Of a stretch of 64,000 nucleotides of DNA, positions 26,308-53,426 are shown one piece after another. Each line of letters opens with the position of its first letter. Within the stretch, counting starts at the first letter, position 1. Where the stretch lies: positions 1 to 64,000 of the forward strand of contig PUQB01000665.1 in NCBI GenBank assembly GCA_003024785.1, read 5' to 3'. The stretch comes from Selaginella tamariscina (Eukaryota > Streptophyta > Lycopodiopsida > Selaginellales > Selaginellaceae). The notes beneath the pieces are model-generated. The model searched no databases, was not told the origin of the DNA, and saw only the letters and a list, made by a program, of their open reading frames with translations. The translations under genes and the position numbers were made by a program.

Positions 26308-29300
26308 TTGAGCCATTATGCACATCACCTTGTTTGAGGAAAGACCCTACGCTCTTGCATGATGAAGTTGCCCTGTACGTATGTTCCACGTCAATACATG
26401 TGTGTGTATACGTAAAGACAAAGAAAGAACAACCACGAACATATACATCCAGAGTTTAATGCTGTTAACAAAGTCTTGTAGAAGGGTAGGCTTAACACTA
26501 ACAACTCAAGTGTAAGGAATTTTGACAGTACCTTGATTGAGGAAAGAAACCAAGCTCGTTGGGATGGGAAGCACTGCCAGTCCCAGAAGGCAGTTCATCA
26601 TTTGAGCCATTATGCACCATCGTAGGATACATCTGTAACACTCATATGCATGTATAAGATAAAACACACAGGAGAGAATCGCAAAGTAAAGTTATACGCT
26701 CGTTAGAGTTGACCATAAGGATTCGACCTTATATGAAAAATGCACAGGAATGAAATGAAAGAAAATAAAAATTCTGCATGCTCACCTTCATGCCCCCCAT
26801 TTGCAACTCTTGCTGTTGTCAAGGTTAACACGTTTTAGAGAAGAAGAACAGGAATTCTACAAAAAAACCACAAACTACATACCTACGGAGCCGTATGTAT
26901 TCTTCAAGCTGCTTCAGCCCCTCATATCAAGCGCTCCAATATGCTCTTCGAAGAAACTGCAAGCAAAATATATAAACTTTGCCACATCCATAAGACTTGG
27001 AGTCACCTACCGGCTTTTTTCAGGCCAAGCCTCCTTCTCCTTTTGCTTTCTGTCACATCCCTATAATGCTCCTGGACATATAGAAAAGCTTCTAGCTACT
27101 CTTAACAGTAGTGAGACATCACTTATTATGTACCAGGCTGTCATAGTTGGAGTTGCTATCAAACAAAAACAACCAGTCAAGAACAACTTGAAGTGTCTAT
27201 GTATGTTTCTATTTGCACACATGCAAACATGCATTCATTCTCTCTCTTTCTCTCTCTCGCGCGCACACAGCTTTATCAGTTTAATAAACTATACGAAACT
27301 CACCAAGATTCTTCTTCTTTAACCTCATGATCACTAGGACGTATCTTATTGAGGATCTGCAGTGGGAAACCAACACGTAATGGAGTTTAGCATGAAGACT
27401 AGGTAAATACAGCCGGACTTACTTTTTCGGATGCAACCCGCCTGTAATCAGGAAAGACCATCGTAAGTGAAACACCAGCATATGTAAAAATGGAATTTTA
27501 CCTTCTTGTTTTTTTCATCCTGAGGCAGCGAAATGAAATTGGAAATGGTTTCCTCAAATCTGCAAGTATCAAGGATCTTGTATCATGAAAATGTATATAG
27601 TAAAATCATATCTGGGACGAATGGAGTACCTTCCGTCCGCAGGATAGATGGTGACCTCGCCAGCCGAAGAGGACGTGATCAAGGCAACATCCGTATCACA
27701 CAGAGTAGAAAGATCCAAAGCCTCCTTCAGGAGCCCAGCTCTTATGTTGTTATAACAACGTTGGTGACATCCACGGTCTTCAATCTTTTCCATTGTCACT
27801 TACACCCCCTTCTGTTTCTGTGTATCTGCACTGACCCTCAACCAATAGAACACCAAGATGAACACTTTATAGATGACATCTTTAATAGATATTAATAAAT
27901 TTAGTAAAAAAAAAATCATCACATGCATATGCGCAACCTGACAATGTTTCAGTATATATAATATCTGACTCACAATTTAGAGTGAAATCTGACAATGTTT
28001 CAGAGCGAAATTCCCACAATTTTGAAGGGGCTCTCCGGATTGGGCGTCCCACAGCTGGCGCTAACCCTAGAAATCTCACCCAAGCATAACCCTAGAAATC
28101 CCGCCTAGGCGTACAAGAGATGCCGCTGTTTGCAGAGAAATGAAATGGTCGTAACCCTAGACTGTGGGGAAATATATATACTACCCACAGCACGAACATG
28201 ACGTGTTACTCTGAACCGTCTATTTGTTTTATTCTCGTAGACTCTCAATCACGTGTAATATGTAACACGTAACACGTGTTGCGTCTTAATTTTAAAATAT
28301 AATTTCTAATTAATTAACACAAAATTAATTTTTTTTTATTTCATTTTAATATTCATATAAATACAAGTCTTAACTTATAATTAGAATTATTTCTCACACT
28401 GCATTAATCTTTATTTTTTTGTTTTGATCGATGGGACCAATACAGTAGAAGAGTTTGTTTTATGTTAATTAACATAAAACTTAATAGCTTTTTTATTTAA
28501 TTTTAAAACTTTAAACAATAAGATATATTTTAACTTGTGAATACAGATAGATCCTATTTGAATAACTCTCCACATGCATTTGTCCCAGTTATGAATCTCT
28601 ACCGTAACATGTTGTATTTATTATATTATTAAGTTAAAATTTATTTAATATTAAAACTTTAAACAAAAAATATATATTTTAACTTATAAATACAAATAGA
28701 TCTGATTTGAATAACTCTCCACATGCATTTGTTCCAATTATAAATCTCTACCGCAACATGTTGTATTTATCATATTATTATGTTAAAACTAAATTAATTA
28801 AAGTAATACAAAAGTTAAGTTTTATTTAATTTTAAAAGTCTTAATTTATAAATATAAATAGATAATCATAATTATAAATAAATAAGTCAGATCTTAACTT
28901 CTCATGTAGCATTAATCCATGTTATTTTTGTTAATAAGACCAACTATATAAAACAATAAGGTTATTATTATTAGAAATTATAAAGAGTTTATTTATATTA
29001 TTAAAATAAAAAAAATATAATTTTTTTTTTCAAGAATAAGATATATACTTTAACTTGAAAATAAATAATTAAGTTTTTAATAACTCTTCCCACACATTAT
29101 TGTGTAATTTGAATTATAAATCTCTGTAAGCACGTCAAACATGTAAAGTGTGTTTTATTTTTGTTATTAAGTTGAAACATAATTTTTAATTAATTAACAT
29201 AAAAAAATTTAAAAAATTATTTCATTTAAAAGCTAAAGAATAAGATATTAATTAACTTGTAAATATAAATAAATAAGCTATAAATATAAATAGATAAGTC

Positions 29301-30574
29301 AAGTCTTAAGCACAGATGCAACAGTTTAAAGAGAAAATGAAATGGTCATAACCTTAAATTATAACGAAACATATATTTAGACACACACATGTGAGGTATC
29401 ACAACACTTGCACATTACATCACGTGAGGAAAGTGTGTTTATTATATCTTTGTCATCTATTTTTATTGTGTAATGTAATTTTTTCAATCATATGTAACAT
29501 GTAAAACGTGTTATAAATTAAAATTATAATTAATTAACACAAAAATGATTTCATACTAAGAGTTTCAAGAAATATATATAATAATTTGTGAAATAAATAA
29601 ATAAATTATAACTATAAAATAAGTCAAGTCTTAAGTTATAATTAGAATTATTTCTGACGCTTTTTTTTTTATTAATAGGACCAACTATATAAAACAAGGT
29701 TGGTATTGATATACATATATAATTTACATAAAACTTAATAATTTCTATTTATTTTAAAATTTTCAACAATAAAACTTATGAATACAAATAGATAAGTTAT
29801 GAATAACTCTCCACATGAGTTGTTTGCTAATCTGAATTGTTCATTTTGCTAATTTAAATTATATATTTCTATCTGACATATAAACATGTTGTATTTATCA
29901 TGTTATTAAATTAAAATATAATATTAAATTAATTAACATACATAAAATTAATTTTTTATTTAATTTTAAAATTTTAAAGAAAAATATATATAATTTAATT
30001 TGTAAATATAAACAAATAATTAAATCCTAAGTTCTCACTATATAAAACAACAAGGTTGTTATTGATAGAAATCATAAAAGTTCATTATATATTAATAAAT
30101 AAAAACAAATTTTTTATTTTATTTTAAAAATCTAAAGAATAGGATACTTTAACTTGAGAATACAAATAGATGAGTTTTGAATAACTTTCCACACGCATTC
30201 ATTCATGTAAATTGAATTATAATCTCTTTGAGCACCTTTAACATGTAAAACATGTTTTATTTATCTTGTTATTAATTTAAAATATAATTTAAATTAATTA
30301 ACATAAAAGTTAAACTTTTCAATTAATTTTCATTTTAAATTAAAGAATAAGTTATTTAATTTAATATAACTAGATAAGCTATAAATATAAATAGATAAGT
30401 CAAGTCTTAAGTTCTTACATAACATTAATGCTTGTTATTTTGTTAATAATAAAATAATAAATTGTTATTGATAAAAATTGTAAGAATTTACTTAAATGGG
30501 TTCTTATTAAGAGGTTTAAAGAATTTAATATGAAGTTTATGATTATTTAATTATTACAATCATGTCTTTAAGAT
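26308..30574. repeat. Tandem unit 2 (about 4.27 kb): MADS copy 2 plus spacer
   Basis: Unit 2 runs from the junction near TTATTTGAGCCATTATGCAC (26300-26325) to the same junction at about 30570. It has the same order as unit 1 but the 3' part of the gene is missing. The junction fuses spacer sequence to a degraded penultimate exon. An empty insertion site (ATGT, 29141-29144) lies in its spacer. Confidence 0.85.
26532..27830 (-). pseudogene. MIKC*-type MADS-box gene, copy 2, 3'-truncated
   Basis: The exons match copy 1 from the MADS box (27799-27630) down to the exon at 26632-26532, with the same splice sites. The MADS frame is open here (MEKIEDRGCHQRC, LCDTDVALITSSS). The K-like exon has lost two bases relative to copy 1 (one near its donor and one within a CTCCATAT context), and the preceding exon lacks one G. 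The penultimate exon survives only as a deleted remnant at about 26326-26380 and the last exon is absent. It could make at most a truncated protein. Confidence 0.8.
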
Positions 30575-33428
30575 TATTTGAGCCATTATGCACATCACCT
30601 TGTTTGAGGAAAGACCCTACGCTCTTGCATGATGAAGTTGCCCTGTACGTATGTTCCACGTCAATACATGTGTGTGTATACGTAAAGACAAAGAAAGAAC
30701 AACCACGAACATATACATCCAGAGTTTAATGCTGTTAACAAAGTCTTGTAGAAGGGCAGGCTTAACACTAACAACTCAAGTGTAAGGAATTTTGACAGTA
30801 CCTTGATTGAGGAAAGAAACCAAGCTCGTTGGGATGGGAAGCACTGCCAGTCCCAGAAGGCAGTTCATCATTTGAGCCATTATGCACCATCGTAGGATAC
30901 ATCTGTAACACTCATATGCATGTATAAGATAAAACACACAGGAGAGAATCGCAAAGTAAAGTTATACGCTCGTTAGAGTTGACCATAAGGATTCGACCTT
31001 ATATGAAAAATGCACAGAATGAAATGAAACAAAATAAAAATTCTGCATGCTCACCTTCATGCCCCCATTTGCAACTCTTGCTGTTGTCAAGGTTAACACG
31101 TTTTAGAGAAGAAGAACAGGAATTCTACAAGAAAACCACAAACTACATACCTACGGAGCCGTATGTATTCTTCAAGCTGCTTCAGCCCCTCCATATCAAG
31201 CGCTCCAATATGCTCTTCGAAGAAACTGCAAGCAAAATATATAAACTTTGCCACATCCATAAGACTTGGAGTCACCTACCGGCTTTTTTCAGGCCAAGCC
31301 TCCTTCTCCTTTTGGTTTTCTGTCACATCCCTATAATGCTCCTGGACATATAGAAAAGCTTCTAGCTACTCTTAACAGTAGTGAGACATCACTTATTATG
31401 TACCAGGCTGTCATAGTTGGAGTTGCTATCAAACAAAAACAACCAGTCAAGAACAACTTGAAGTGTCTATGTATGTTTCTATTTGCACACATGCAAACAT
31501 GCATTCATTCTCTCTCTTTCTCTCTCTCGCGCGCACACAGCTTTATCAGTTTAATAAACTATACGAAACTCACCAAGATTCTTCTTCTTTAACCTCATGA
31601 TCACTAGGACGTATCTTATTGAGGATCTGCAGTGGGAAACCAACACGTAATGGAGTTTAGCATGAAGACTAGGTAAATACAGCCGGACTTACTTTTTCGG
31701 ATGCAACCCGCCTGTAATCAGAAAGACCATCGTAAGTGAAACACCAGCATATGTAAAAATGGAATTTTACCTCTTGTTTTTTTCATCCTGAGGCAGCGAA
31801 ATGAAATTGGAAATGGTTTCCTCAAATCTGCAAGTATCAAGGATCTTGTATCATGAAAATATATATAGTAAAATCATATCTGGGACGAATGGAGTACCTT
31901 CCGTCCGCAGGATAGATGGTGACCTCGCCAGCCGAAGAGGACGTGATCAAGGCAACATCCGTATCACACAGAGTAGAAAGATCCAAAGCCTCCTTCAGGA
32001 GCCCAGCTCTTATGTTGTTATAACAACGTTGGTGACATCCACGGTCTTCAATCTTTTCCATTGTCAGCTTACACCACCCCTTCTGTTTCTGTGTATCTGC
32101 ACTGACCCTCAACCAATAGAACACCAAGATGAACACTTTATAGATGACATCTTTAATAGATATTAATAAATATTAGTAAAGGGAAAATGAAATCATCACA
32201 TGCATATGCGCAACCTGACAATGTTTCAGTATATATAATATCTGACTCACAATGTTTTAGAGTGAAATCTGACAATGTTTCAGAGCGAAATTCCCACAAT
32301 TTTGAAAGGGGCTCTCCGGATTGGGCGTCCCACAGCTGGCGCTAACCCTAGAAATCTCACCCAAGCATAACCCTAGAAATCCCGCCTAGGCGTACAAGAG
32401 ATGCCGCTGTTTGCAGAGAAATGAAATGGTCGTAACCCTAGACTGTGGGGAAATATATATACTACCCACAGCACGAACATGACGTGTTACTCTGAACCGT
32501 CTATTTGTTTTATTCTTGTAGACTCTCAAACACGTGTAATATGTAACACGTAACACGTGTTGCGTCTTAATTTTAAAATATAATTTCTAATTAATTAACA
32601 CAAAATTAATTTTTTTTATTTCATTTTAATATTCATATAAATACAAGTCTTAACTTATAATTAGAATTATTTCTCACACTCCATTAATCTTTATTTTTTT
32701 GTTTTGATCGATGGGACCAATACAGTAGAAGAGTTTGTTTTATGTTAATTAACATAAAACTTAATAGCTTTTTTATTTAATTTTAAAACTTTAAACAATA
32801 AGATATATATTAACTTGTGAATACAGATAGATCCTATTTGAATAACTCTCCACATGCATTTGTCCCAGTTATGAATCTCTACCGTAACATGTTGTATTTA
32901 TCATATTATTAAGTTAAAATTTAATATTAAAACTTAAACAATAAAATATATATTTTAACTTATAAATACAAATAGATCTGATTTGAATAACTCTCCACAT
33001 GCATTTGTTCCAATTATAAATCTCTACCGTAACATGTTGTATTTATCATATTATTAAGTTAAAACTATAATATTAATTAAGTAATACAAAAGTTAAGTTT
33101 TATTTAATTTTAAAAGTCTTAATTTGTAAATATAAATAGATAATCATAATTATAAATAAATAAGTCAAATCTTAACTTCTCATAACATTAATCCATGTTA
33201 TTTTGTTAATAAGACCAACTATATAAAACAATAAGGTTGTTATTGTTAGAAATTATAAAGAGTTTATTTATATTATTAAAATAAAAATTAATATATAAAT
33301 TTCTTTTCAAGAATAAGATATATACTTTAACTTGAGAAACAAATAATTAAGTTTAACTCTTAATAACTCTTCCACACATTTATTTGTGTAATTTGAATTA
33401 TAAATCTCTGTAAGCACGTAAAACATGT
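30575..33428. repeat. Tandem unit 3, left part (interrupted by the large insertion)
   Basis: Same organisation as unit 2: junction, MADS copy 3, then spacer. The spacer is interrupted at 33428 by the 13.7 kb element and resumes at 47115, with ATGT present on both sides. The insertion therefore came after this unit existed. Confidence 0.85.
30802..32136 (-). pseudogene. MIKC*-type MADS-box gene, copy 3, 3'-truncated
   Basis: Exons: 32136 or later to 31898 (MADS box, open frame), 31827-31771, 31711-31693, 31626-31574, 31330-31280, 31225-31151 (K-like), about 31080-31055, and 30902-30802. An in-frame ATG at 32134-32136 lies 24 codons before MEKIED, giving an open extension MFILVFYWLRVSADTQKQKG that is probably leader sequence rather than true protein. 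The K-like exon lacks one base at its donor, so its phase no longer fits the next exon, which itself lacks one C. The last two exons are missing or remnant. The MADS domain could still be expressed as a truncated DNA-binding protein. Confidence 0.8.
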
Positions 33429-33455
33429 ATGCAAGTTGTAACTAAAATGGGCATG
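33429..33455 (+). repeat. Left terminal inverted repeat
   Basis: This is the 27-bp left end of the large element. Mismatches to the right end fall at positions 6, 14 and 19. Both ends are followed inward by AT-rich sequence of 900 bp (left) and about 270 bp (right) with no gene. Confidence 0.85.
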
Positions 33456-34350
33456 CCTATGGTCCCATTTCTTAATAATTAGCAATTTTAGCTATTTAAT
33501 TAGCATTTTTTAATATTAAAAAATATTCTTTAGAATATATGTTTGAAAACAGAATATTCTTTAGAACTTTAATTAATATAACATTCATTGAACAAAAATT
33601 AATAACATTATAAAAGTAGAAAGTATTAAATTATATAATATATTACTTAATATAACAATTAAAGAAGAGCATAAGAGGTACATTATATAAATATTGATGT
33701 TGTTATTAAAATATTAATATTTAAATATAACATTATTAATTAAAAATTTGTAGTAGCAATAATATATATATAATATACAAAATCCTATAATAATATAGTC
33801 AATCTTCCATATCGTTTTTAAAATTTATATAGTTAAGTAAATAATTTGGTACTATTATTAAAGAGTTTATTATAATTATAAATATTAAATATATAATATT
33901 TTATAATTTTTTAATTGCTTTAAGCTTCAGAAAACATACATTCCCTTGTAGTTTTGTTAATCGTGACTTTATCAATGCTTCTTGACATACACCTATATCG
34001 AATGGATTTAACATTTATAAAACATGCTATGTCTATTTAATTGGAAGACCATGTTTTCTCTAGGCATCCATTATATCTTTCGCTCTCCTTCTCGTGTTGT
34101 CTTTTTTATGGTTTGAACCATGCAACCTTAATAATATTATTTTTGTGATTACTTCAGGTGTGTCGATAATTTGATCCATCCAAATAGGCTGATTATACGA
34201 CGCATCTGGAGTAATGAGAACCATTATTAGTTTTTGAAGATCCTAGTAGCAATCAAAGTATGTTTTAAGTTTTTGGTTTCTTTGTTCAACAAAGTGTGGG
34301 GTTTGCACTTCCACATCACTACTGGCTTTTATGTCTATGTGCTAGTGATG

Positions 34351-36956
34351 TCATTTCAATCTCCTTTCGCCACCTTGTTTTAGGCCAAAAAGGGTGTTGC
34401 AATTCTGTACTTTTGACAATAGGCCCTTACAACTCTCGAACAACAGTCTCCCAATAGTGACCACATGCTTATATAGTTTTGAGTAACCAGTTGCCTTATC
34501 AGAATTCTTTGGCATCAATTTTTGAACCCATGCCACATATTTTTTAATGCCATCAATAATAACCTCTTGTTCCTTGAGCTGGGCACTCAATGGAATAGGT
34601 TTGGTTATCCTTCTGGGAAAAGTGGCTTTCCATTTTCTCCACTTTTGAAGAGCATTAACCCTCTTTTGGTAACCACTCATGCTCTGATGACCGTAACTTG
34701 TACTGCATAATAGGTATACCATCTCGTATGGAAAAAAGAATTGTAGCGACACAAGGTGACCAACTAAAGAATCACTCCCCTCTTTTATATACTCCTTGAG
34801 AAATTTTTGAAGTCTGGCACCTCAGTCATAGCAAAGCACAACTTTTTTTGGACATGCAGTTTTTAAAAAGATTCATCATATGCGGTAAGGTAAGTGCACT
34901 TGTCCTTTTTGTAGAGTTGGAGACCTTGCTGAAGAACGCATTAATATCTTCATGAGTGTGACCAACCATAAGAAAACTGAGCGTGATTGTCTCAAACACA
35001 CCTTTGGCAACAAGCATTGACAAGTATGCTAGCACTGCACAATTATCCATCTGTAAAAGCAAATGACGAGGAAGCTTATTTGATGTTGAGGACACATGTA
35101 TACTATTTGAGTTAGATCCCTCCACTGAATCTGAACTCTCAACAGGGCCATCTGTTTTTTGTGCAGGCTGTTGACAATGCCTCTCATATTCCCAAGTAGC
35201 CTCAAGTGCAGACGTGTTCATGAGAGCATTATGTAAAGGTTAAATGTGTTGTTTTTTCACTTTGAGATCACTAATAGGACGTGTCTGTGAGTGGGCTTCA
35301 AGGTTTCTGAAACACATGGCCAACGACCCAATAGTGAAATTGGAGTCGCTAGACCAATGTGGAAGTGAAAAGTGTGCATATGACTCACAACCGTGTCCAT
35401 GTGTTAGCACACATGTTAATAAAATCGGAAGTTTCATGACATTTCCAAGGCACTTTGGTGTTAACGAGCTTTGGAATGCTGGTCTTTGAATGATCCATCT
35501 TGTCATGGATCAAGCACAGTACTCTGGTGGGCGTGACACAGAAAGCATGCGGTGTGCATAGTACTGAGACCGGCAAGTTTGTTGTGCAATCATGTGGGCC
35601 TCCATCTTCTTTTGAATGGTAGTGATCTCCACTAAGGTTTTTGCACAACCTCTGTAGCCTTCAATGATGTACAAGTGTCACACTTGAAAAGCTAGAGTGT
35701 TTTGCAATCTCCACATCCTTAAAATGAGTATTCCATATGTTGTTGAAGGTACCAGTGCAGATTGCTTGCAGCCCCATCAAGCTGAGGCACTTGTTCACAT
35801 GTTCACACAGCTTCAATTGAGTGTAGATCGAAGACAAAACCTTGAGATTTTCTTGACCCCTGCATTTGTGGTTCGGCATTTGTGAGGCATCCTGTCTGCA
35901 TTTGCTTCCACAAAAGCCTTGAGTATTTATATGGCTACCATAATGTGAGAGCGAATTTGGACCAAGCAAGTGTTCCCATGTACTGAGGTTTGCGCTCCAT
36001 CTACCCACTCATCCCTCCGACGGTAGAACGTGGTCTTTGGGATCCGTATATGCTGTACCAAGCTTTGAAGCAGATGGCCACCTTATTAAATACCATGGAT
36101 GTACTCTGATAACCTGTGTCTGAGGTCATTCCATCAATACACCCAGTTAGTGCAACATATACAAACTCATGCCTTTGCTTTTGGGTGAGCGTACGAAAGA
36201 CATATCTACATTGGGTAATTTCATTCCGGTCTGCCATCTGACAACACTTCTTGCAGCAATCAATCATGGAAATGTTCATAACACTTTCAGAAGATGTAGG
36301 ATCCATTTCACCCTCTTGCTGAAACTTGCAGGGGAAGATCTGCAACCCATGAATCGCCTTTTTCTTACAATAGGACCAATGCAAGGAACCTCTTCAAATA
36401 TGAGTTGTTCTTCCGGGTTATTATTATTGAAATCCAACCCAGAATATGTTGAACCATCTTGCCGTCTTAATTCAGATGTTCGCCACCTCACGAGGGATCC
36501 AGGATGCAATGTGCCATTAGGTGAAACCTCTGTCACAATTACACCCACGAAGTCGGACCCTAGTTTCTCTTCTGACACTGCTTCCATTGGATTTATAACT
36601 GTGATGATGCCTCTCCCAACCTCAATCTTATGAAGAAAGAGAATCACCTCATCCATCACAGTAGGCAAGCCATCATTTAGAAAACTCGTGCTCATATTTG
36701 TTTGTGATTCTGTATATTCTGTGTCAGCCTTGACTTCATCCAAATTCCACAATACAGGAGAACCCTCCTCAAATTTCATTCTCGGAACCTCAACATGCTT
36801 GAAAATGGTGTTCACCCATATGTACACACAAGATCCTTGGGCAATATTGTGACATGATGCATTATCATCTCGAACTTCCACAGTTCCAGTGCCAACTATC
36901 TCGTTGTTCCGAAGAAGACATACTTTATTTCCAGTATTATACATATTGTCCTGCAC
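34351..36956 (-). pseudogene. DUF7869-like protein, candidate transposase of the large element
   Basis: Minus-strand open stretches form one gene of roughly 800 residues with several frameshifts (for example at an AAAAAGG run near 36360). Order: two repeats resembling a DUF8039/transposase-associated fold (NKVCLLRNNEIVGTGTVEV; EVGRGIITVINP), a Cys-rich stretch with CCKKCCQ (about 36250), SFSKCDTC (about 35690), DKMDHSKTSIPKL (about 35490), then LLLQMDNC and SFLMVGHTHEDINAFFSKV (about 35050-34915), then a C-terminal tail. The LQ-DNC and GHTHEDI motifs are the hallmark of DUF7869 proteins, which I know as repetitive, mobile-element-like genes in bryophytes, oomycetes and animals. The Asp and Glu/Asp residues could form an RNase H-type active site; that is inference. 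It is transcribed away from palindrome array 1. Confidence 0.65.
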
Positions 36957-37094
36957 ATAAATAATTGTATTATTTATGATATCTATTTATGCAATATTTT
37001 AAGAAATCAGAACTGCGGTTGTTTAATAAGATGCATGTGCAATAATACATAATTATGTATAGAGATAATATCTCATGCTTTATTAATACAACTG

Positions 37095-38160
37095 ATGGGG
37101 GGATTAATCCCGCCCATGACTCCCTTCGATGAGGAACGATGGGCGATGGCGCGCATTAATCCCACTGCCGACTGTACCCCTTTGGAGTGAACCGGCGAGA
37201 TTAATCCCGCTGACGAAGCTACCCCTTCGGAGAGAGTCGGCAGGATTAATCCCACCGACGACTCTACCCCATCGGAGAAAGTCAACGGGATTAATCCCGT
37301 CGCCAATTCCCTCTCGCGATGAAGAATTGGCAGAATTAATCCCGTCGCCAGATCTTCCTCGTCGGAGAGAGGCGGCGGGATTAATCTCGCCGCGGACTCC
37401 CTTCGACAAAGAAGAAGCGGCGGGATTAATCCCACCCCCAATCTTCCGCGTCGGAGAGGCGGCGGGATTAATTCTGCGTGGACTCCCTCGATGAGGAAGT
37501 ATCGGTGGATTAATCCCGTGCTAGATCTTCCTCGTCGGAGAGAGCGGCGGGATTAATCCCGCCGCGGACTCCCTCCGACGAGGAAGAAGCGGTGGGATTA
37601 ATCTCGCCCCGATCTTCCTTGTCGGAGAGACGGCGGGATTAATCCCGTCGTGGACTCTCTCTGACGAGGAAGTACCGGCGGGATTAATCCCGCCGCTGGA
37701 TCTTCCTGTCGGAGAGAGGCAGTAAGATTAATCCCGCCGCAAATCCCTCCGACGAGAAGAGGGGCGGGATTAATCCTGCCCACAACTCTGACGACGGGGA
37801 AAGGCCGGGATTAATCCGCCCACAACTCTCTCCAAAGCTATGATTTCAAAGAGATCTCGGGATGAATCCTGCCCACAAATATTTAAAACAGGGAAGTGGT
37901 GGCGAGATTAATCCCGCCACCCCTTCTCTCGCCTAAAATGGTTGGCGAGATTAATCCCATAAATAACTTTTCTAATAAATTCAAGTAACTCTTTATCAGT
38001 TGAGAGAGTTATCGGCGATTAATCCGCCGCTCTTTTTAAAAGCGGAGAAGCATTGCCCGACTAATTCTGCCATAGCTATAAAAGAGATGGTGGCGGGATT
38101 AATCCCGCCACCCTTCGAAGAGGCGAAAAAAAATGGCCGGATTAATCCCTGCCCCGGCTA
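37095..38160. repeat. Palindrome array 1 (GGCGGGATTAATCCCGCC), upstream of the DUF7869-like gene
   Basis: About two dozen copies of a perfect or near-perfect 18-bp palindrome occur at about 40-47 bp spacing. The linkers are themselves related in inverted orientation (CTCCCTCCGACGAGGAAG and ATCTTCCTCGTCGGAGAG alternate). Each palindrome is therefore separated by a second, alternating inverted motif, giving a strand-symmetric array. It is strongly GC-rich against AT-rich flanks and lies within about 140 bp upstream of the first ATG of the minus-strand gene. The spacing, often a multiple of three, produces long spurious frames such as repeated GLIPP. Confidence 0.9.
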
Positions 38161-40700
38161 ACCAAGAATATTAAGTTAGAAGTATATTTAAACGGGATAA
38201 ATCCTTAACAGAATATATTGTAATCCTAATGCATTCCTAAATCCTAAATTCTAAAATTTAAGAGAGAATGTAAGAGAGTGAATCTTTATAAATATATTTA
38301 AATTTGTTTATAATACTTACTTGTAAACAGTACTGAAGGCGCCGTGCTTTCTATAAACAATAGCGCACTCAATTTAATGTCGCTCTGAGCTGATCACTAA
38401 GAAAAAAAAAGAAAATCTGAAGAGTGAAAATAAAAAATGAAGAAACCCTTGCCGGAGAAAGAACAGATCTGAATTTGAGTGGGAAATTAAATGCATTTTC
38501 AAATTTACATGTCAGACTGACAATACTTATATTAGAAATTCGAAATTTTTGAAAATAACAGAAAAGAAAATTTAAAATGAGTTGAAACAAATAACCGACA
38601 GTCTAACATATATACTCTCCAATTCCAATGAGTGTTTTAAAATTGCATTTAATGTCATTCAAGTGATTCAAGCTGTTTAATATTACGAAATTTTTGTAAT
38701 TATTCTACATTCTTAATATTCAAGTATATATTATAAGTTATATATATATATATATATATATACACTAATACAATAAATAAATTGATATATTATTATGTAT
38801 CATTTAAAATATATTCATAGTCTGTTTATTATTATATTTTCTTAATTACTCGAGTAATTAATTTACATTTCCTACTATTAATGGGATATTCTTTATTATT
38901 TTCTTAATATTCGAAGAATATTTCAATATTAAACCTGATTATCATAATTAAATTAGTCTTATTTTAATTATCTTCAGTAATTATTCTACATTTGTATATA
39001 TTAATGGGATTTTCTCAATTAATTTGTTATTATTTCAAGAATATTCCTATGTTAAACCTTATTATCAATATTAAATTAATATATATTATTAAAACTATAT
39101 ATGACTATATATTAGATAAAATGATGTATTATTATGTATAATTTAAAATATGTTCATAGTGTGTATATTAATATCATTTTCTTAATTACTTGAGTAATTA
39201 ATCTTCTTTATATTAATGCGATATTCTTTATTATTTTCTTATTATTCCAAGAATATTTCAATATTAAACATGATTATCATAATTAATTTAGTTAATTATT
39301 TCAGTACTTGATCTACATTTGTATATATTAATGGGATTTTCTCAATTAATTTCTTATTATTTCAAGAATATTCTAATGTTAAACCTTATTATCAATATTA
39401 AATTAATATATATTATTAAAACTATATATGGCTATATATTAGATAAAATCATATATTATTATGTATAATTTAAAATATGTTCATAGTGTGTTATTAATAT
39501 TATTTTCTTAATTATTCGATGTTTGTTTTGCACACATATATAAACACAATCATAAATTTATATATACACGTGCACACGCATTAGAAGCACTTACAGAGAC
39601 ACATATGCACACACATGCACATTGCCCTAAACCAAACTTGAGAAATTATATGTTGCTTCTTTATTGAAAAACATCATGTTCAACGCATGTATGATCTATA
39701 TGTACTCATTTGTGTGTTGTAACACATTGAATTTACACATGTAATATATATGTATGTGTGTATACACGTGTGTATGTATATATGTGTACTAATATATGCA
39801 ATGTGTACGATTTTCATTTGTTAACACTCTCTCTTCTCTCATACATACACAGTGTCACCATGCATAATCCCTTCTCTCATACATACACACCATGCATGAT
39901 CATGATCCATAATATGTAGCCTTTCTCCTCTCTACATACACACATGCATGATCCATAATATGTACTGATGTTACAATATTATGTAATATGTATAATGTAT
40001 ATTTATGTATAATATGTGTATGTATATATGTGTACTAATATATGCAATACGTACAAAATTAATTTTTTAACACTCACTCCTCTCATACATACACACCATG
40101 CATGATCCATCCTAACCCTAAACCCTAAACCCTAAACCTATGTAACACATTGAATTTACACATGTATATATATGTATGTCTGTGTGTATACACGTGTGTA
40201 TGTATGTGTGTACTAATATATGCAATGTGTATGAATTTAATTTGTTAACACTCTCTCTTCTCTCATACATACACACCATGCATGATCCATAATATGTACT
40301 CTGTCTCTCTAATATTAATATGTACTAATATGTATGTATGTCTATATGTATAATATTATGTGTGTATATATGTATCGCACTTGAAACTTTAACACTTTCA
40401 TGGACACACACATGTTAAACCCCTATATGATTTTATTCTTGGGGTGTATGTGATACACCCACGCAAATAATATAATGAAAGAATATTCGTTTAGGGTGAA
40501 TCTATAATTTATTCTTTTTAGGGTTTAAGTATATTCTTAGAAGGAATATTCGATTAGGGTTAATCCTTTTAGGGTTTAGGTATATTCCTAAGGTTTCAAG
40601 AAGTAAGGTGGCGGCTGTGAGATCAGATCTCTCTCACACACAGGTGAGAATCTCTCTCACACACGCACACTCTTGAGTTTATTTATTTATTTTATTCACA
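38161..40700. other. AT-rich centre of the large element with internal repeats
   Basis: A duplicated segment of about 350 bp (38790-39120 and 39125-39480, both with ATTATGTAT.ATTTAAAATAT) is followed by three copies of a module. The module contains TGTATACACGTGTGTATG and TTGTTAACACTCTCTCTTC (about 39740-39860, 40010-40100, 40150-40290). A short telomere-like run CCCTAAACCCTAAACCCTAA lies at about 40117-40137. AGGGTTTA-type motifs recur at 40490-40590. No ORF is supported. Confidence 0.65.
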
Positions 40701-40779
40701 TATATATTTATATGTGTGTGTATCTTAATAATATAATTTAGATCTCTATCTCTCTCACACACACAACACTTGTATACAT

Positions 40780-40811
<32 letters not shown>

Positions 40812-41080
40812 TTGTGTGTGTTTGTGTTTGTGTATCTGTATAATTTTATTAATTTATTAATTTTATCTCTTGCACACGCACGCACACTCCTGTTTATCTG
40901 TATGATTTTATTTGTTTCGCTCACACACACATACTCACGATATACATACACACATACACACACACACACACACACATATATACCTATATACATATAATAT
41001 ACATACATATATTATGTGTACCAGTATCTGTATAATTCTATTTATTTATCTATCTCTCGCACACACACGCACACTCCTAT

Positions 41081-41122
<42 letters not shown>

Positions 41123-41584
41123 GTGTGTGTGTGTATTTGTATAATTTTATTGATTTGTTAATTGTATCTCTCGCATACACACACACACTCCTGTATATAT
41201 ATATATGTGTGTGTGTGTGTGTTTGTTTATCTGTATGATTTTATTTGTTTCACACACGCATACACACGATATACATATAACACACACATATATATACCTA
41301 TGTACATATATACATACATATATTATGTGTACCAGTATCTATATAATTTTATTTATTTATCTATCTCTCGCACACACACGCACACTCCTGTATATACATA
41401 TACATATACATATATATGTGTGTGTGTGTTGTATCTGTATAATTTAATTATTTAGCACACACATACGATATACATATACATATACATATGTGTGTGTATC
41501 AGTATAATTTTATTTGATTTGTCTATCTCTGGGACACACATGCACTCTCCTACACACACATATACATATAGATATATATATGTG
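40700..41584. repeat. CA/TA microsatellite-rich tandem modules
   Basis: Five to six modules of about 130-180 bp are built from a long CA run, TATATATA, TGTGTGTGTATCTGTATAAT and TTTTATTTATTTATCTATCTC. They are followed by CGCACACACACGCACACTCC and repeat head to tail. Long His/Thr/Tyr-rich reading frames on both strands are artefacts of this. The modules end where palindrome array 2 starts. Confidence 0.85.
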
Positions 41585-42385
41585 TGTAGCGGCGGGATTA
41601 ATCCCGCCGTTATATGGTTAGACTCTCGGCGGCGGGATTAATCCCACCGCCTTTCAGGCAGGCTATGGTTAGCCTCATGCGCAGGATTAATCCGCCGCCT
41701 ACATGCCCTGGCGGAATCGGCGGATTATCCGCCGCCATGGCCTGCCGAAGGGCTAGGCGGCGGGATTAATCCGCCGATTCCGCAGGGCATTGGCGTCCGG
41801 CGGGATTAATCCCGCCGCCAGGCTGAGTGGGCCTGGGGCGGGATTAATCCGCGCGTGCATGCCCTGCGAATCGGGCGGGATTATCCCCGCCAAAGGCCTG
41901 CCTAAGGGCCTAGGCGGCGGGATTAATCCCGCCCGATTCCGCACAGGATTGGCGTCCGGCGGGATTAATCCCGCCTAGGGACCGAGTGAAGGCCCTGGGC
42001 GGCGGATTAATCCCGCCGAGCCTTCAATGCCTGTTAGGGAATGAATCCCGCCACCCTTCCTTTTTCTTCATTGGTGAGTCGGACCAATCCCAAACGTTTC
42101 TGTCTGAGACGTAGAAGGTTTACAACATACCAATGGAGGACTGGGAAGGGTGGCGAGATTCATTTAACCATCCCTTACATGGTGGGCGAGATTAATCCCG
42201 CCTCCTTTCTGGAGTCACTGAAGGGTGTGCCAAATAAATCCTGCCAAGTTCTCTCTGAGACCGAGAAGGGTGGCAAGATTAATCCGCACTCCCGTTCAGG
42301 CCTCCAGAAAGGTGGCGAGATTAATCCCGCCCACTCTTTCAGGAGGCATTGAAGGGGTGGCGAGATTAATCCCGCCGCACCTTCC
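41585..42385. repeat. Palindrome array 2 (GGCGGGATTAATCCCGCC), upstream of the methyltransferase-like gene
   Basis: About fifteen copies of the palindrome found in array 1 sit here with different linkers (GCCCTGCGGAATCGG, AGGCCTGCCTAAGGGCCTAG and later CTTTCAGGAGGCATTGAAGG). It lies about 330 bp upstream of the ATG of the plus-strand gene. The palindrome is conserved between the arrays while the linkers are not, which points to selection or conversion on the palindrome itself, such as a binding site. Confidence 0.9.
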
Positions 42386-42490
42386 ATGTGAATATATATG
42401 TGTATTAGTATATATAAGTTGCATATCTCATTTTATTTACTTTTATCATCTTATCATAATATTTCGAGTAAAAGCTAGGAAACTATGTAA

Positions 42491-42577
42491 AACTGTCCAG
42501 AGCTCACATTTGTGGTGGTTCTAAAACGAAATGTTATCTTTCTTTTGCACTAGCACAAAGGTGAGCTTTGGACAGTT
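42491..42577 (+). ncRNA. Candidate microRNA-like hairpin in the leader of the methyltransferase-like gene
   Basis: The arms 42491-42514 (AACTGTCCAGAGCTCACATT and on) and 42554-42577 (CACAAAGGTGAGCTTTGGAC and on) pair over 24 nucleotides with two mismatches and no bulge. They are separated by a loop of about 39 nucleotides. This geometry fits a small plant MIRNA-type foldback or the residue of a small palindromic insertion. It lies between palindrome array 2 and the ATG at 42719. The sequence is not one I recognise as a known microRNA. Confidence 0.45.
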
Positions 42578-42718
42578 AATTCGTCCACTTCTCTCTGTGT
42601 ATTATTTTTGTATATTCGGGTTTATACAAGTGTGTGTGCGTTTTTATATGATTTGTATTCATAGTGTATTATTTTGCAGAAGGACGATTTAATTAAACAA
42701 GGAGATCGAGTCATTAGT

Positions 42719-45700
42719 ATGGAGTCGTCGTCAAATTCTGGGTAAGAATTAAAATAAAATCTGTTATACTCGGATATGTGCTTGAACTAATCATTTTTGT
42801 ATTCAGATGTGGAATTGAGGTGACATTAAAACGAGAGCAGGAGAAGAGATGGGCAGGGGGATTCTGGAATCAACTTGGCCATATTTCAAACTAAACGGGA
42901 AGCGCATTGGAACAACCATGGTTGCTGTCAAACTAACCTCTGTCACATCGCATGGACAAGCAAAACAATGGAAAGTGGGTGTGCTAGTCAAGCATCCGAA
43001 AGCATGCTGTGAACCCAGATTGAACGATGCTACACATATGCCTTGTTCCATCCAATGTCACGTTCTCGGATCCAGAGGTCGCCAGTTACAACATTAATTT
43101 CGGGTGGTTTTCGACTTGTGGATAATGACGTTCACGTGTTCACTAATGATGTTGACCGTGGAGTTCTTCTTCAACTCAACGAAAGCCCATCTATGGAGGG
43201 GATCCAACTGGATGTCTACTTCGAAGATCTTCAGACTCATCGAGTAGGTGTATTCAGGAGATATTGCTTCACAATACAGAAAATCACAAGTGGAGCAATC
43301 TCCCTCTTCACATTGAAGAAGAACACAGCGACATCATAAGGAGATTGAGAGGGTGGCTTGGTCTCAGGTTCTTTACAGATCACGTTCAATTTGCTTAGAA
43401 ATTTCGGGAGCTGGAAGAGTGTGCCGAGAACATTAGAACAGCATCAATCGGGGATCACACATGTTGATTCGGATCGTAGAAGAAAATCATTGTCGTTTTG
43501 TCAGCTGCACCTGTGGCATCCCATGCTGCAATAAGCCACAAGGAAATGATGTTGGATGATAGGATTTACGAGTGTAGGGTTAAGTATTGCAGCGTCAACC
43601 CAAACTTCAATTACAGGCCACTCAACAGGAACGTGTAGCTGAGCTCATGGAGAAGATGAAGGACGACAATTCTTACACCGTTCCACATAATGCTGTTTTG
43701 TGCCATACTACGAGAGAAACAAAGGCGCTGACAAAGTGTGGATCACAACACCAAAACAAATGAGGAAGATTCAGACGGAGAATAGATAAAGTACAGCCCA
43801 ATGACTTCTCGACGAACACAACAAAGGAACGATGGCAACAAAACTTTCCGAGCATACCCGTGAGAAGCTGACGAAAAGATCGGCGTTTTTAGCGAAGCCG
43901 AATCTCACAATCGAGCAGTACCATAAGTTATCGGCGGAATGGGACGCTGCAGACACCAACCACTACAACAGCAAAATATGGGAGAAGTTCAAACACACGC
44001 GAGCCGTGTGGGAATCTCTTCAGCGACCACAAAGAGCTACCGCAGGGAATACACAATCTGCGGACTACCGGGTAAGCAAATTGTTTGGGCGGGATTTATC
44101 TCGCCGGTATATTAATCTGTCTTTTTTTCAGAGAGTTGAAGAAATTGTAGCAGTTGATTTTGCCCAGGTGGGCGGGAAGGAAACATCCTTTTTGATGATG
44201 TTGATTTCTTGTCCCGAGGATAGGATCTTTGCCAAATGGTTGGGGATTATGGAATCCTTTGCAAAAGGAACACTGAAGAAGAAGCAGACAAGTGAAGGGA
44301 GCCCTCAGAGAAGTCTGCAAAGAAACCCAGTAAGACGCCGAAGGCTAAGTCTGTTCAATCTATAAAGGATGTAGACAACGATTTCAAGCTCACATGGTTG
44401 AAGCCTTTAAATGGAACAACGATGGAGGAGATGGAAGTCTTGGCTGATTTGGTGATTGATGGCAAATTACAGATTAACAACAGCAGCCCCACCTCTCCTT
44501 TTCATCTCAAGGCAATGGAGTTGAAGACGGTCAGGCACTTCAAGGAGTGGTTGGGAATACACTGCCACAAACTGGGTTGGACCTCGGCTTCAACATACGA
44601 AGAGGTCAAATATTTGCATGTGACAAATGATATGCTTGTCGAATGGGTGAATCAATCGGAAGATCTGGGCAAGAATCTATTGCACGCCAACGCCAAAAGG
44701 AGAACATTGCGATGACGCCTTCTCTTATGGCAGTCCTTCAGCAGCGGAGAACCGAGTTGAACCTTATAAAGGAGGATGCTACGAATCACGACAAGCCCTA
44801 CAGATGTTTGTTGTTGGATTCGGAGACTTTATGGGGTACCATCACTGCTTGTAGGAAACCGTTTCAATTGTTCGTGATGGATCGGCGGGTGTCAAAAAAT
44901 CCTTCGACAGACAGGACATAGAGGATTTGGTGGAGAAACTTAGCCGTGCAAGCATGTACAAAGAAGGTATTTATTATTGAATTCATACTTGCACTCTTGA
45001 CTGATATCTACGTTTTCAGGTATTTATTTCTTGATTCTTGCTCATGTCACCGATACCTTTGCCTTCGCCTTTGCCAAGAGGAATAAACATCGTTGGACAG
45101 GATTTTATATGAATGATGCTGATCCGAAGTGCATTGATTCGGTTGTTCACTTGGTTGTTAGGAATGCGCCAAACAATTTCAAACTTCCAAATGACTGGCC
45201 AGGCATCTGTTTGCACTCCAACGGCCCTGAACCTCCATCCGATACACCGATAGGAGAGTGACGTATTCGGCAATGTACGTTATCCAAACATCACAAGTCA
45301 AGCGGCACGGAGCATCGTCAACTTGATCAGGGGTCCTCACAGTGATGCGTGGGTTTTTGACTACTGCACTAGGGGGTCCGTCTTGAAGGAGTGTTACCTT
45401 CGGCATACATGTGTGCCGTTGAAAAGGATAAGACCATGGTTGAGGACCTGAACAAGTGGATAGATAGGTTCTCAACTGACTACCCCAACGAATCCATAAA
45501 GGAGTATTTGAGAAAGTTCCCTCCGATAAGTGCGATAGCTCTGAAGACGAATCTGGTTCAATGTCGGAGTCTGAGGACGAACTTCAATCAGATATTAGAC
45601 CGGAAGTTATCTCGAGGAGTACAGAACATTCACACTCCATTACCCATGGAAACATCAATAGAAGATACGAAGATCTTGAACCATCTCACAAGCGGCTTAG

Positions 45701-45770
45701 ACCTTCTTCGCCTCACTCAGAAGGTAATAGCGAAGAAGAATTGTTAATGAGTTCTTAGAGTGACGAATAG
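42719..45770 (+). pseudogene. Large unknown protein with C-terminal methyltransferase-like domain, frameshifted
   Basis: A start at 42719 (MESSSNSG) precedes a short intron (42742-42806, GTAAG to CAG). Coding-like stretches follow in shifting frames. They include TWPYFKLNGKRIGTTMVAVK (about 42870), LISGGFRLVDNDVHVF (43090), LSAAPVASHAAISHKEMM (43500), and MATKLSEHTREKLTKRSAFL with a helical repeat (43832-44070). After an intron at 44072-44131 come VEEIVAVDFAQVGGKETSF, then WLKPLNGTTMEEMEVLADLV (44395). From about 44790 to 45480 a methyltransferase-like domain is visible, annotated separately. The N-terminal two thirds match nothing I know. The gene diverges from the DUF7869-like gene across the two palindrome arrays. 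A possible end is near 45745-45770. Confidence 0.55.
44790..45480 (+). other. Beta-class (permuted) methyltransferase-like domain
   Basis: The order fits a permuted N6-adenine/N4-cytosine methyltransferase. A catalytic-motif-like CLLLDSETLWGTI (expected D-PP-W) comes first. It is followed by a helix plus strand QDIEDLVEKLSRASMYKEG then IYFLILAHVTDTFAFAFA, then FYMNDADPKCIDSVVHLVVR. The SAM-binding part comes last: YPNITSQAARSIVNLIRG, WVFDYCTRGSVLKEC (expected FD-F-G-GS), then a frameshift and VEKDKTMVEDLNKW, matching the acidic residue that ends the next strand. The catalytic motif is degenerate (no DPPW), and a short intron probably interrupts near 44970-45020. MTA70/METTL4-like relatives are the closest I can suggest; that is inference. 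Confidence 0.4.
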
Positions 45771-45929
45771 TTGTAAATGAGTGTAACATAAGGCATTTTT
45801 GTATATTTTTTTATATTTGTACAGAAAATAAATTCTCAAGGATTAATGAAGCTTTTAGTTCAAACATGGGTCACACATTAACAAGGTAAATAATATACCT
45901 TGATAATTTTAAGGTCAGCTAATTATCAT

Positions 45930-46842
45930 TTTGCAGATGTAATGAAACAATTGAGAACATGGATTTTCAGCATTGCATGAGGTAAGAGAGGGGTTTGGCG
46001 ACAATTTCTTGTGCCACATGTCAGAATGACAGAGTTCATGCAGGAAATGGATAATAATGCAGCTCAAAACATCGTTACCATGGGGGCCACTTCAGTTTTT
46101 TCATCATCATTTTTATTGGCTTCAGTTCCGAAATCAATTTCTTCAGCATGCAATATCTGAATCTTGTAAGGATGATGTACAATTAAATGATGAAAGGGAT
46201 AGGCAACGAGATAGTGTCAACGGATAAATGTGAAAGGGAGCAAACAAGTGATTTGCAAAGTATTCAAGAGGCAACGCTATCCCATGTTACTCATGCCATA
46301 TTGTGTTGGGGAGATCAATCGCTTAAGGATAATGAAGAACGCACAGATGTTAGTGGTAGACGACTCTCCTCAAAAGACTATGCTCAATCAAAACATTGCT
46401 TGTATTCATCTAATCACTTTCGACCCATATTCTGATACCGATATCATAGATGAGCTAGTGAACTACTTGGATACGTGCTTCAGAAAGAAGAATCTCGAAA
46501 ACTTTTGTGAGCAGTATCCACCGTATCAAACATTTCTTAAAGCTTTTCTTTTTCGTGATTTTGAATTTTATAAAATAAAGGATAGCAACCAGTGCTTTAT
46601 AATATTATTCTTAAGGAACGTCAATTTTTAGATGAGCCTTTATGCAGACCTTCTCTTATCACATCTTATGTATTAACAAGGATGACAACTCCAATTTCAT
46701 TCGTGAGAGTGTTAAGTGGTGGCAACAACATCAAAATATTGACCAAAATGATTCGATTAATCCAGAGAGTGATGATTTAGACAAAATGAGAAGATTTCTC
46801 TGTAAGATAAGAAAAAGTATTTATAAAAAATTAACATGTTGA
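45930..46842 (+). pseudogene. Unidentified ORF cluster in the large element
   Basis: Overlapping open stretches on the plus strand give an interrupted reading. It includes MLVVDDSPQKTMLNQNIACI, YSDTDIIDELVNYLDTCF, QYPPYQTFLKAFLFRDFEFY and NFIRESVKWWQQHQNIDQND, ending with a stop at 46840-46842. The three pieces appear to be one protein of about 250-300 residues with two frameshifts. It lies inside the terminal inverted repeats and downstream of the methyltransferase-like gene, in the same direction. No domain was recognised. Confidence 0.35.
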
Positions 46843-47087
46843 TAAGAAAATAATTTTATTGTAATTATGTTTGATAGTACTTCTTAATTATTGTAAAACT
46901 ATTTTTAAAATAATATAAATATTCTAAGATATTTTAGGAATATTTCTTACTAAGTAAGGTTATTGAAATATTAATTTATTAATTAATTAATATTTAAGGC
47001 TTAATTACATATTAATTAAATGATTAATTAATAATTAAAACTTAAGTATTAATTAGTAATTTATTTTATATTCTCATTTTCACGTAT

Positions 47088-47114
47088 CATGCCCACTTTA
47101 ATTACAACGTGCAT
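47088..47114 (-). repeat. Right terminal inverted repeat
   Basis: This is the 27-bp right end, inverted relative to 33429-33455 (CATGCCCAC to AACGTGCAT). It is followed by the duplicated ATGT target and the resumed spacer of tandem unit 3. Confidence 0.85.
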
Positions 47115-48375
47115 ATGTAAAGTGTGTTTTATTTATTGTTATTAAGTTGAAACATAATTTTTAATTAATTAACATAAAAAAAATTTAAAATTATTTCATT
47201 TAAAAGCTAAAGAATAAGATATTAATTTAACTTGTAAATATAAATAAATAAGCTTTAAATATAAATAGATAAGTCAAGTCTTAAGCACAAGATGTAACAG
47301 TTTAAAGAGAAAATGAAATGGTCATAACCTTAGATTGTAAGGAATATATATGTAGACACACACACATGTGAGGTATCCACAACACTTGCACATTACATCA
47401 CGTGAGGAAAGTGTGTTTCATTATATCTTTGTCATCTATTTTATATTTGTGTAATGTAATTTTTTCAATCATGTGTAACATGTAAAACGTGTTATAAATT
47501 AAAATTATAATTAATTAACACAAAAATGATTTCATACTAAGAGTTTCAAGAAATATATATAATATTTGTAAATATAAATAAATAAATTATAACTATAATA
47601 AATAAGCCAAGTCTTAAGTTATAATTAGAATTATTTCTCACGCTTTTTTTTATTTTTATTAATAGGACCAACTATATAAAACAAGGTTGGTATTGATATA
47701 CATATATAATTTAACATAAAACTTAATAATTTCTATTTCATTTTAAAATTTTAAAACATAAGATTTATAATTTAACTTATGAATACAAATAGATAAGTTA
47801 TGAATAACTCTCCACATGAGTTGGTTTTGCTAATCTTAATTGTTCATTTTGCTAATTTGAATTATATATTTCTATCTGACATATAAACATGTTGCATTTA
47901 TCATGTTATTAAATTAAAATATAATATTAAATTAATTAACATACATAAAAGTTAATTTTTATTTAATTTTAAAATTTTAAAGAAAATATATATAATTTAA
48001 TTTGTAAATATAAACAAATAATTCAAATCCTAAGTTCTCACTATATAAAACAACAAGGTTGTTATTGATAGAAATCATAAAAGTTCATTTATATTAATAA
48101 AATAGAAACAAATTTTTTTATTTTATTTTAAAAATCTAAAGAATAGGACGTACTTTAACTTGAGAATACAAATAGATAAGTTTTGAATAACTTTCCACAT
48201 GCATTCATTCATGTAAATTGAATTATAGATCTCTTTGAGCACCTTTAACATGTAAAACATGTTTTATTTATCTTGTTATTAATTTAAAATATAATTTAAA
48301 TTAATTAACATAAAAGTTAAACTTTTTAATAAATTTTCATTTAAAAGTTAATTTAACTTGTAAATATAACTAGAT
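47115..48375. repeat. Tandem unit 3 spacer, right part
   Basis: This resumes the AT-rich spacer exactly where it was broken at 33428 (AAAGTGTGTTTTATT after the duplicated ATGT) and follows the spacers of units 1 and 2 to about 48375 (AACTAGATAAGCT). There it breaks into decayed gypsy sequence. A full fourth unit therefore does not follow directly. Confidence 0.85.
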
Positions 48376-48379
48376 AAGC

Positions 48380-49075
48380 TGATTATAACATGTTATGGAA
48401 TTCCGAATGTAATAATTAGTGATAGATGAAAACATTTTATTAATGAAATAATTCAAACACTTATGGAGGAGTTTATTATAAAACATAAGAAATCTACATC
48501 TTATTATCTTCAATGAAATGGACAAGCTAAATTCATAAATAGTCCTTAAGAATGTCTTAAGAAAAGTGATTCAGGAAAATAAAAAAGACTGGGATGAAAA
48601 ACTTTCTGAAGTCTTATGGGCTTATAGGACAACTTATAAAGTTGTGAGATGAATGACACCTTTTAAGTTAGCTTATGGACTTGAGGTAATAACTCATGTG
48701 GAGTACATTATACCATCTTTAAGGATTGTGGTAAAGCATAATTTGGGAAAAAAGGAATCCTTGTAAAGTAGGCTACAAGAACTGAAAAAAAACTTGATGA
48801 GATAAGGCTATATGCCTTATGGATTGTGCAAGCAATCCAAAAAAAAAAAAGGAAAGCTTGATATAATAAGAAAAGGAAGAAGTGATATATAGGACGGTGA
48901 TTTGGTCATGTGGTATAGGGGAAGTGTGAAATAAATTAAAGATGAAATGGTTAACCCCATTTAGAGTTAAAGAAATAAATGAAGAAGGGGTTGTGCTTAT
49001 GAAAACCCTAAAAGGAGACATTATGCAGGAAAGGGTAAATATTAATAAATTAAGAAAATATGAAGTATCATTTAT
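48380..49075 (+). pseudogene. Decayed gypsy integrase fragment (different lineage)
   Basis: A reading through stops gives GIPNVIISDR, NEIIQTLMEEFIIKHKKSTS, a NGQAKFIN-like segment and a LWAYRTT-like segment. These are hallmarks of the gypsy integrase core. At 48942-49070 an open stretch, MKWLTPFRVKEINEEGVVLM then KTLKGDIMQERVNINKLRKY, resembles the post-integrase C-terminal domain of such elements. It differs in sequence from the relics at 1-4114 and 51270-54635, so it is another family. Confidence 0.65.
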
Positions 49076-51245: not shown

Positions 51246-52197
51246 TCTGAATAGTGATTTTTGCTCACATGAAAGTTTATCCATATTAACAATTCTATTA
51301 AATCAAATACCACCAAATCAAATGGACGAGAAACTGCAATTGACTCTATCTCTGAATGCATTCAAACATTTTAAATTGTAGACATACACTTATTTAGAGA
51401 TTTGACTTATGAATCACATCTTCTCACAACTCTGGTTAATAAAAAGATCTACATAGCTTCTCAATCACATCACGATGTCCCATGTGTCCACCAAGAATAA
51501 GAGAGTTATGGTAAGTGTGAGGAAGCATGAAACAAAGATCGAAGGCACCACTAACCGCAAATGATCACTCAAATCAGTCTTCACACAATAAAGAAAGTCA
51601 TCTTGAAGGCGATATTATGAATGTAAGTGCCTGAAAGGCAAGTTATCAGCAAGCGATGTAAGATTCTCAAACGCATCATGAAGCTTTTGAATCCATGGCT
51701 CAACCTTTTGAACTTCTTGAACCTCATCCAAGGAAGACAAATTTAACTCTACACCTTATGAACATTGAATGTCAAACACAACAACTGTTGATGGTATCAA
51801 ATCCTCGTCTAAAAAATTCATTAATGTTGGAACAACTAGCTCTTGAGGAACAGAAGATGAGAGAGAAGTGGAAGAGGAGCTCGAGAAAGAGCGTTAGCAT
51901 CAACCATGAAACTCCAAGGGCGATGAACAACTTCAAAGTCATAAATTTAAAGCTTCAAGGCCCATCAAGCAATATGGCCAACCAAGTTTTTTTGCTTCAA
52001 CAACAAAGTGATTGTAGCATGATCACCTTCCAACAACGTTTAAGAATCATACAAGTAGGTATGGAGCTTTTTAAAACACCAAGCCGTTGCTAGATACTCC
52101 TTCTCTGTCATGGAGTAGTTCACCTCTATTGGTTATAACATACGACTAATGTATACAATGGGATGTTGTTGACCAAGCACACTTATACTTTTTTGCA

Positions 52198-53130: not shown

Positions 53131-53426
53131 AGGGTGACATGTTGTAATTTTGGTTCCAAATGATAAGTCAAAGTCAAAGAGATTAGCATATTCCTTCTTG
53201 AGTTAATCAACGACTTCATTAAAAGGATCCAAATAGGGAATGGAAGAGAACAATAAGAAGTAAGGGTGAAACAAAAGTGATAAAAGCAAAGGTAAAAACA
53301 GATGGATGAAGTGAAATATAAGTAAGAGGAATAAAAGAAATATGAGAGAGAGTCAAATAAGGAGGAGACTTTTCAAAGTCATACTTGACATGATTACAAG
53401 TCAACCAATCCATACTCAAAATAAGG

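Follow-up and report, generated by a model that had tools for sequence, protein, structure and literature searches.

Insertion at the locus

The DNA analysed here, called the window, is a stretch of 64,000 nucleotides from Selaginella tamariscina (contig PUQB01000665.1 of assembly GCA_003024785.1, positions 1 to 64,000). At window positions 33429-47114 it holds a 13.7-kb unit that very likely represents a large DNA transposon, with short inverted ends, a gene for a DUF7869 protein, two arrays of palindromes and two further genes. The features of this unit are as follows.

33425-33428, no strand: left copy of the 4-bp target duplication ATGT (a single ATGT at three empty sites)
33429-33455, plus strand: left terminal inverted repeat, 27 bp (1,409 left-end 45-mers genome-wide)
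33920-36944, minus strand: gene of the predicted DUF7869 transposase, here a pseudogene with frameshifts and a 75-bp deletion (open in another copy, with two exons and 1,021 codons)
34826-35239, minus strand: piece matching Pfam PF25273 (DUF7869), with the motifs QMDN and GHTHEDIN (E=8.6e-27)
37097-38152, no strand: palindrome array 1, with 20 units of GGCGGGATTAATCCCGCC at a spacing of mostly 41-45 bp, directly adjoining the transposase start on its upstream side
41591-42376, no strand: palindrome array 2, 11 units, upstream of gene 2
42719-42741, plus strand: gene 2, exon 1, by homology
42807-44071, plus strand: gene 2, exon 2, by homology, with indels in the window copy
44132-44966, plus strand: gene 2, exon 3, by homology
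45020-45753, plus strand: gene 2, exon 4, by homology
46026-46823, plus strand: gene 3, for a NIF/FCP1-like phosphatase, with about 350 bp deleted internally here (PF03031, E=1.3e-12 in another copy)
47088-47114, minus strand: right terminal inverted repeat, 27 bp (1,543 right-end 45-mers genome-wide)
47115-47118, no strand: right copy of the 4-bp target duplication ATGT (a single ATGT at the empty sites)

The two ends, ATGCAAGTTGTAACTAAAATGGGCATG and ATGCACGTTGTAATTAAAGTGGGCATG, are identical at 24 of 27 positions, and the probability of an equally good match between two random 27-mers of the same composition is 5.6e-11. When the flanks are fused with one ATGT removed, the alignment spans the join at 27661-30380 (94.8%), at 23425-26093 (93.5%) and, in inverted orientation, at 59003-60029 (91.6%). 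These are three paralogous empty sites, two in tandem repeat copies and one inverted, with one ATGT each. Because the terminal repeats match, ATGT flanks both of them and the three empty sites hold it singly, the insertion is real and precisely bounded. The original prediction, made from the letters of the window, had described these inverted ends, the duplicated ATGT and the interruption of a tandem repeat with three empty sites, and all three are confirmed.

The interrupted repeat has a unit of about 4.24 kb arranged in tandem (96.6% identity) at 22075-33429 and 47115-48380, and the transposon lies inside the last tandem unit. An inverted, partly matching copy of the same repeat is found at 58946-60449.

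The DUF7869 gene

In other copies of the element the DUF7869 gene is open, with one intron, and encodes 1,021 amino acids; DUF7869 is the sole match of this protein in Pfam at E up to 10. The gene had been recognised in the original prediction together with the lack of any recognisable hAT, MULE, CACTA, PIF or Mariner transposase, and the Pfam search agrees on both counts. The prediction did not mention that the gene of the window copy is broken: the 75-bp deletion removes the intron and the residues right after the second conserved Asp. This copy of the gene is dead, and the window copy as a whole is an old, inactivated member of its family.

Relatives of the DUF7869 protein are found in bryophytes, molluscs and a coral, including one from Physcomitrium patens; the nearest named relatives are from bryophytes at 33-34%, and the closest relatives reach 53%. 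A sequence search of the PDB was empty, and a literature search found no paper on the Pfam domain DUF7869. In structural models of two relatives the core is RNase-H-like and conserved acidic residues occupy DDE/D positions; the best structural matches of these models are DDE transposases and integrases. The acids conserved in the protein are D484/D487, D637 and E676/D677/D679, the last three being candidates for the third catalytic acid. The coding sequence is under purifying selection, as judged from nonsynonymous and synonymous (N:S) counts for which 11 copies were projected column by column onto one reference frame, insertions being skipped. Given the RNase-H-like core with DDE/D acids and the purifying selection, the protein is very probably the transposase, its catalysis being predicted from the models, and the same assignment in the original prediction is thereby strengthened.

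The family in the genome

The genome searched was the window's own assembly (300.7 Mb in 1,391 contigs). The 27-bp end has 4,089 matches at up to 3 mismatches. A left-specific 45-mer has 1,409 matches, a right-specific 45-mer 1,543, a probe from gene 2 1,551 and a probe from gene 3 1,919, while the reversed control of each of these four has none. When 100 perfect left ends and 100 perfect right ends from the listings were paired, 43 pairs were less than 30 kb apart, with a median span of 14.6 kb; most of these pairs enclose a long copy, 29 of the 43 spanning 13.5-15.2 kb. By our estimate the family, at about 1,450 copies with 14.6 kb each, would amount to about 21 Mb, or about 7% of the assembly.

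The genes keep their place relative to the ends. A transcribed DUF7869 match lies at a fixed 1,605-1,655 bp inside 48 of the 100 listed perfect left ends, the DUF7869 positions used being 90 transcribed places on contigs up to C243. In a genome scan for DUF7869, 150 of 4,249 first-look candidates were scored and part of 300 matches was listed, and the three top-scoring matches among the scored candidates likewise adjoin a left end. For gene 2, 73 of the listed perfect places fall within the range of the right-end list; downstream of 43 of them, at a distance of 1,988-2,644 bp, that list has a perfect right end. The remaining 30 include at least four fetched copies with an imperfect or masked right end. 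Ten loci were fetched around perfect left ends, and six of them (e722, e2087, e182b, e2368, e113 and e366) align to the window copy over the full length of the unit. Locus e323, the shortest, is without a middle part and has a run of N; for e182a, e161 and e2054 the alignment is partial. Identity among fetched copies is up to 99.5% (over 2.9 kb around the transposase gene), and between these and the window copy mostly 85-97%.

An exact 4-bp target duplication is present in 20 of the 38 copies in which both ends were read, where chance would give 0.6% each (P about 1e-34). The first stage comprised 12 copies (the ten fetched loci, the window copy and e84), of which e366, e182a, e161 and e2054 were without a readable right end, and five of the other eight have the duplication (that of e2368 was read by eye). 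In the second set 19 copies were probed; in nine of them no right end could be recognised within the fetched sequence, and these were left out of the 38, while four of the other ten have the duplication. In the third set, which includes e161 after its right end was read 22 kb away, it is present in 11 of 20. The second and third sets are biased toward young copies, since they were chosen for perfect left ends, and the third for perfect right ends too; no copy in these two sets shares more than 4 bp. The 20 duplications are varied in sequence (TCTA occurs twice), A/T-rich and without a fixed motif. No matching duplication was found in the other 18 copies. Two pairs of copies (L113/L114 and L115/L116; one pair on C46 and C128, the other on C180) have a common left flank over at least 230-300 bp and differing right flanks, and in each pair one copy has a correct 4-bp duplication and the other none. 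These pairs are explained either by recombination among copies that are nearly identical or by misjoining of contigs.

The family is therefore built on a single unit, bounded by 27-bp inverted ends and 4-bp target duplications, and each kind of end can be recognised about 1,400-1,550 times. The original prediction had inferred a single mobile unit, to be sought in the genome with both ends, and had reasoned that a chance junction would be indicated if the pair of ends occurred once or if the genes occurred without it. Such a search yields further copies with genes and 4-bp duplications, and the mobile unit is borne out by the number of ends and gene-2 probes, the clustering near 14.6 kb and the 20 duplications; with each end found more than 1,400 times, the pair is clearly not single. 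The second point is mixed. The DUF7869 matches at a fixed distance from left ends tie gene and ends together, but the gene-3 probes and the first-look DUF7869 candidates exceed the number of ends, so some genes are without recognisable ends, through decay, truncation or membership of other families.

Three further loci differ in structure. A copy of 4.0 kb (G000:C213:116965-120982) has both ends perfect, a 4-bp duplication ACAG and a DUF7869 match; it is too short for the full gene set and is possibly a short mobile derivative. The right end is doubled at G000:C80:563731 and 563980 (249 bp apart) and the left end at G000:C191:284284 and 284567 (283 bp apart), perhaps in nested or end-duplicated copies.

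Gene 2, the palindrome arrays and gene 3

In an open copy, gene 2 has four exons and 976 codons. Searches of Pfam, NCBIfam and the PDB gave no match for it, its rows in phrogs are all non-significant, and no relative was found in searches of about 5.8 billion proteins. The N:S counts are 32:25 for shared variants (P=1e-3), 28:44 for variants seen in the window copy only (P=4e-11) and 47:19 for singletons. Gene 2 is an orphan that shows signs of constraint, although the singletons are near neutral. The original prediction had labelled part of this region, probably exon 4, methyltransferase-like. A DNA methyltransferase that marks the palindromes of its own element would be in keeping with the repeated palindrome and with the stretch FDYCTRGSVLKEC..FAVEKD, which we take, by eye, to resemble methyltransferase motif I. 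However, the domain and structure searches just described do not sustain the label, and such a function is unlikely.

The arrays of the original prediction are real. The palindrome is 18 bp long, and its 12-bp core (at most one mismatch) is present in both arrays and absent elsewhere in the window. In three measured copies GGCGGGATTAATCCCGCC is clustered upstream of both genes, with 15-20 units next to the transposase start and 11-24 units at gene 2. Palindromes are present in nine of nine copies and both clusters in eight, with e323 having the first cluster only. The tandem repeat finder calls the arrays, and their spacing is fairly regular (mostly 42-47 bp), as would be expected of mere tandem repeats without function. 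Plain tandem duplication would copy the spacers too, but in one copy the 18-bp cores are 93% alike in pairwise comparison and the adjoining 18 bp only 31-33%; in the old window copy the values are 83% and 29-32%. Retention of the core rather than the spacer is as expected for protein-binding sites, and with each array upstream of a gene and both kept in nearly all copies, functionless repeats are quite improbable. The arrays are probably binding sites for a self-encoded regulator or anti-silencer.

Gene 3, the NIF-phosphatase gene, was not part of the original prediction. Its N:S counts of 10:2, 23:9 and 17:7, compared with 3.4:1, give no visible constraint, and it is therefore probably a captured phosphatase passenger.

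Proposed mechanism

The observations are best explained by a cut-and-paste DNA transposon of large size, about 14.6 kb, in which the DUF7869 protein is the transposase, the arrays are probably targets of the gene-2 product, gene 3 is a passenger and the window copy is dead; we consider this explanation very likely. With high confidence, the DUF7869 protein would act as an RNase-H-fold DDE/D transposase that binds both ends, excises them and joins them to a target at a 4-bp stagger. At moderate confidence, both arrays would be bound by a dimeric DNA-binding protein, for which the gene-2 product is the most economical candidate, and the bound protein would keep the transposase and gene-2 promoters active or unsilenced, as VANC does for VANDAL elements.

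The roles could be exchanged, with the DUF7869 protein as an accessory and the orphan gene 2 as the real transposase. Gene 2 shows signs of constraint, is as frequent as the ends and in 43 of 73 places keeps a set position relative to the right end, on its inner side. However, it is the DUF7869 protein that has conserved acids in RNase-H-like order, structural neighbours among transposases and integrases and relatives in bryophytes, molluscs and coral, while no relative of gene 2 was found among about 5.8 billion proteins, and the exchange is very unlikely. Spread mainly by segmental duplication or recombination, to which the 18 copies without a matching duplication and the two pairs with a common left flank might point, is extremely improbable given 20 exact 4-bp duplications of differing sequence on many contigs and the clean empty sites in the window.

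Comparison with known transposons

The 1,021-amino-acid protein does not match the Pfam transposase or integrase domains of hAT, Mutator, Mariner, PIF/Harbinger, CACTA or Ginger elements, and none of the three gene products has the Pfam domains of the family B DNA polymerase or retroviral-like integrase of Polinton/Maverick. The target duplication is 8 bp in hAT and TTAA in Kolobok; unlike those of piggyBac and Kolobok, none of the 20 duplications here is TTAA. Mutator elements have 7-12-bp duplications and Mariner elements TA (PMC10741241). The duplications here, exactly 4 bp and varied in sequence, differ from these and from those of hAT. The predicted catalytic-core fold and acid positions resemble those of Mos1/Metnase, other DDE(D) transposases and retroviral integrases; in contrast, no sequence similarity was found in the PDB search, and the duplications here are of 4 bp rather than TA.

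Sola is the most likely superfamily, with somewhat better than an even chance, in a comparison made by description and partly by motifs. As excerpted, the description of Sola gives a DDD transposase, 4-bp target duplications, terminal inverted repeats of 11-1124 bp, lengths mostly of 2-9 kb with some above 15 kb, and occurrence in the moss Physcomitrella (PMC10741241). The 4-bp duplication is shared, the 27-bp ends and length of about 14.6 kb fall in the known range, and a DUF7869 relative is likewise found in a moss, Physcomitrium patens. With regard to DDD, the conserved acids stand in RNase-H-like order, with E676/D677/D679 as candidates for the third catalytic position. In contrast, a second gene, a phosphatase gene and palindrome arrays are unmentioned in the excerpted Sola description (PMC10741241).

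Extra genes are known from other DNA transposons. In fungi, transposons of several lineages carry a TET/JBP dioxygenase that is thought to counter silencing (PMC12730594); an extra gene is present here as well, but searches of Pfam, NCBIfam and phrogs gave it no match to a dioxygenase model. The VANDAL elements of Arabidopsis encode VANC anti-silencing proteins with target motifs that are often tandem repeats (PMC5735166), and here too a second transposon-encoded protein accompanies tandemly repeated motifs. For gene 2 the searches made revealed no related protein, and binding and demethylation are conjectural here; by analogy, its product may bind the arrays in a VANC-like anti-silencing role. 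VANDALs are Mutator-like.

A further reading, possible though doubtful, is that DUF7869 defines its own DDE/D superfamily, extending from bryophytes to molluscs, of which a giant member evades silencing through an orphan protein acting on promoter-proximal arrays. If true, this would explain how the element could grow to about 7% of a 300-Mb genome with open reading frames still present in some copies. New is the combination of short ends, several genes and high copy number with palindrome arrays in one element, a very large multi-gene cut-and-paste element that has multiplied to about 21 Mb. DUF7869, a widespread and unexplained family, gains a testable function as transposase, and an orphan gene with conserved arrays at two promoters makes transposon anti-silencing testable in a further system.

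Other features of the window

Within the transposon, amid CA/TG microsatellites, 40114-40138 is a perfect AACCCTA run (3.6 copies), a telomere-like repeat of plant type that, with the bryophyte relatives of the DUF7869 protein, points weakly to a land plant as host. Outside the transposon, the window has large duplications: 1-3048 is inverted relative to 51411-54434 (75%), 4450-5815 is inverted relative to 57056-58396 (93%), and 7070-9433 is repeated directly at 60449-62865 (81%).
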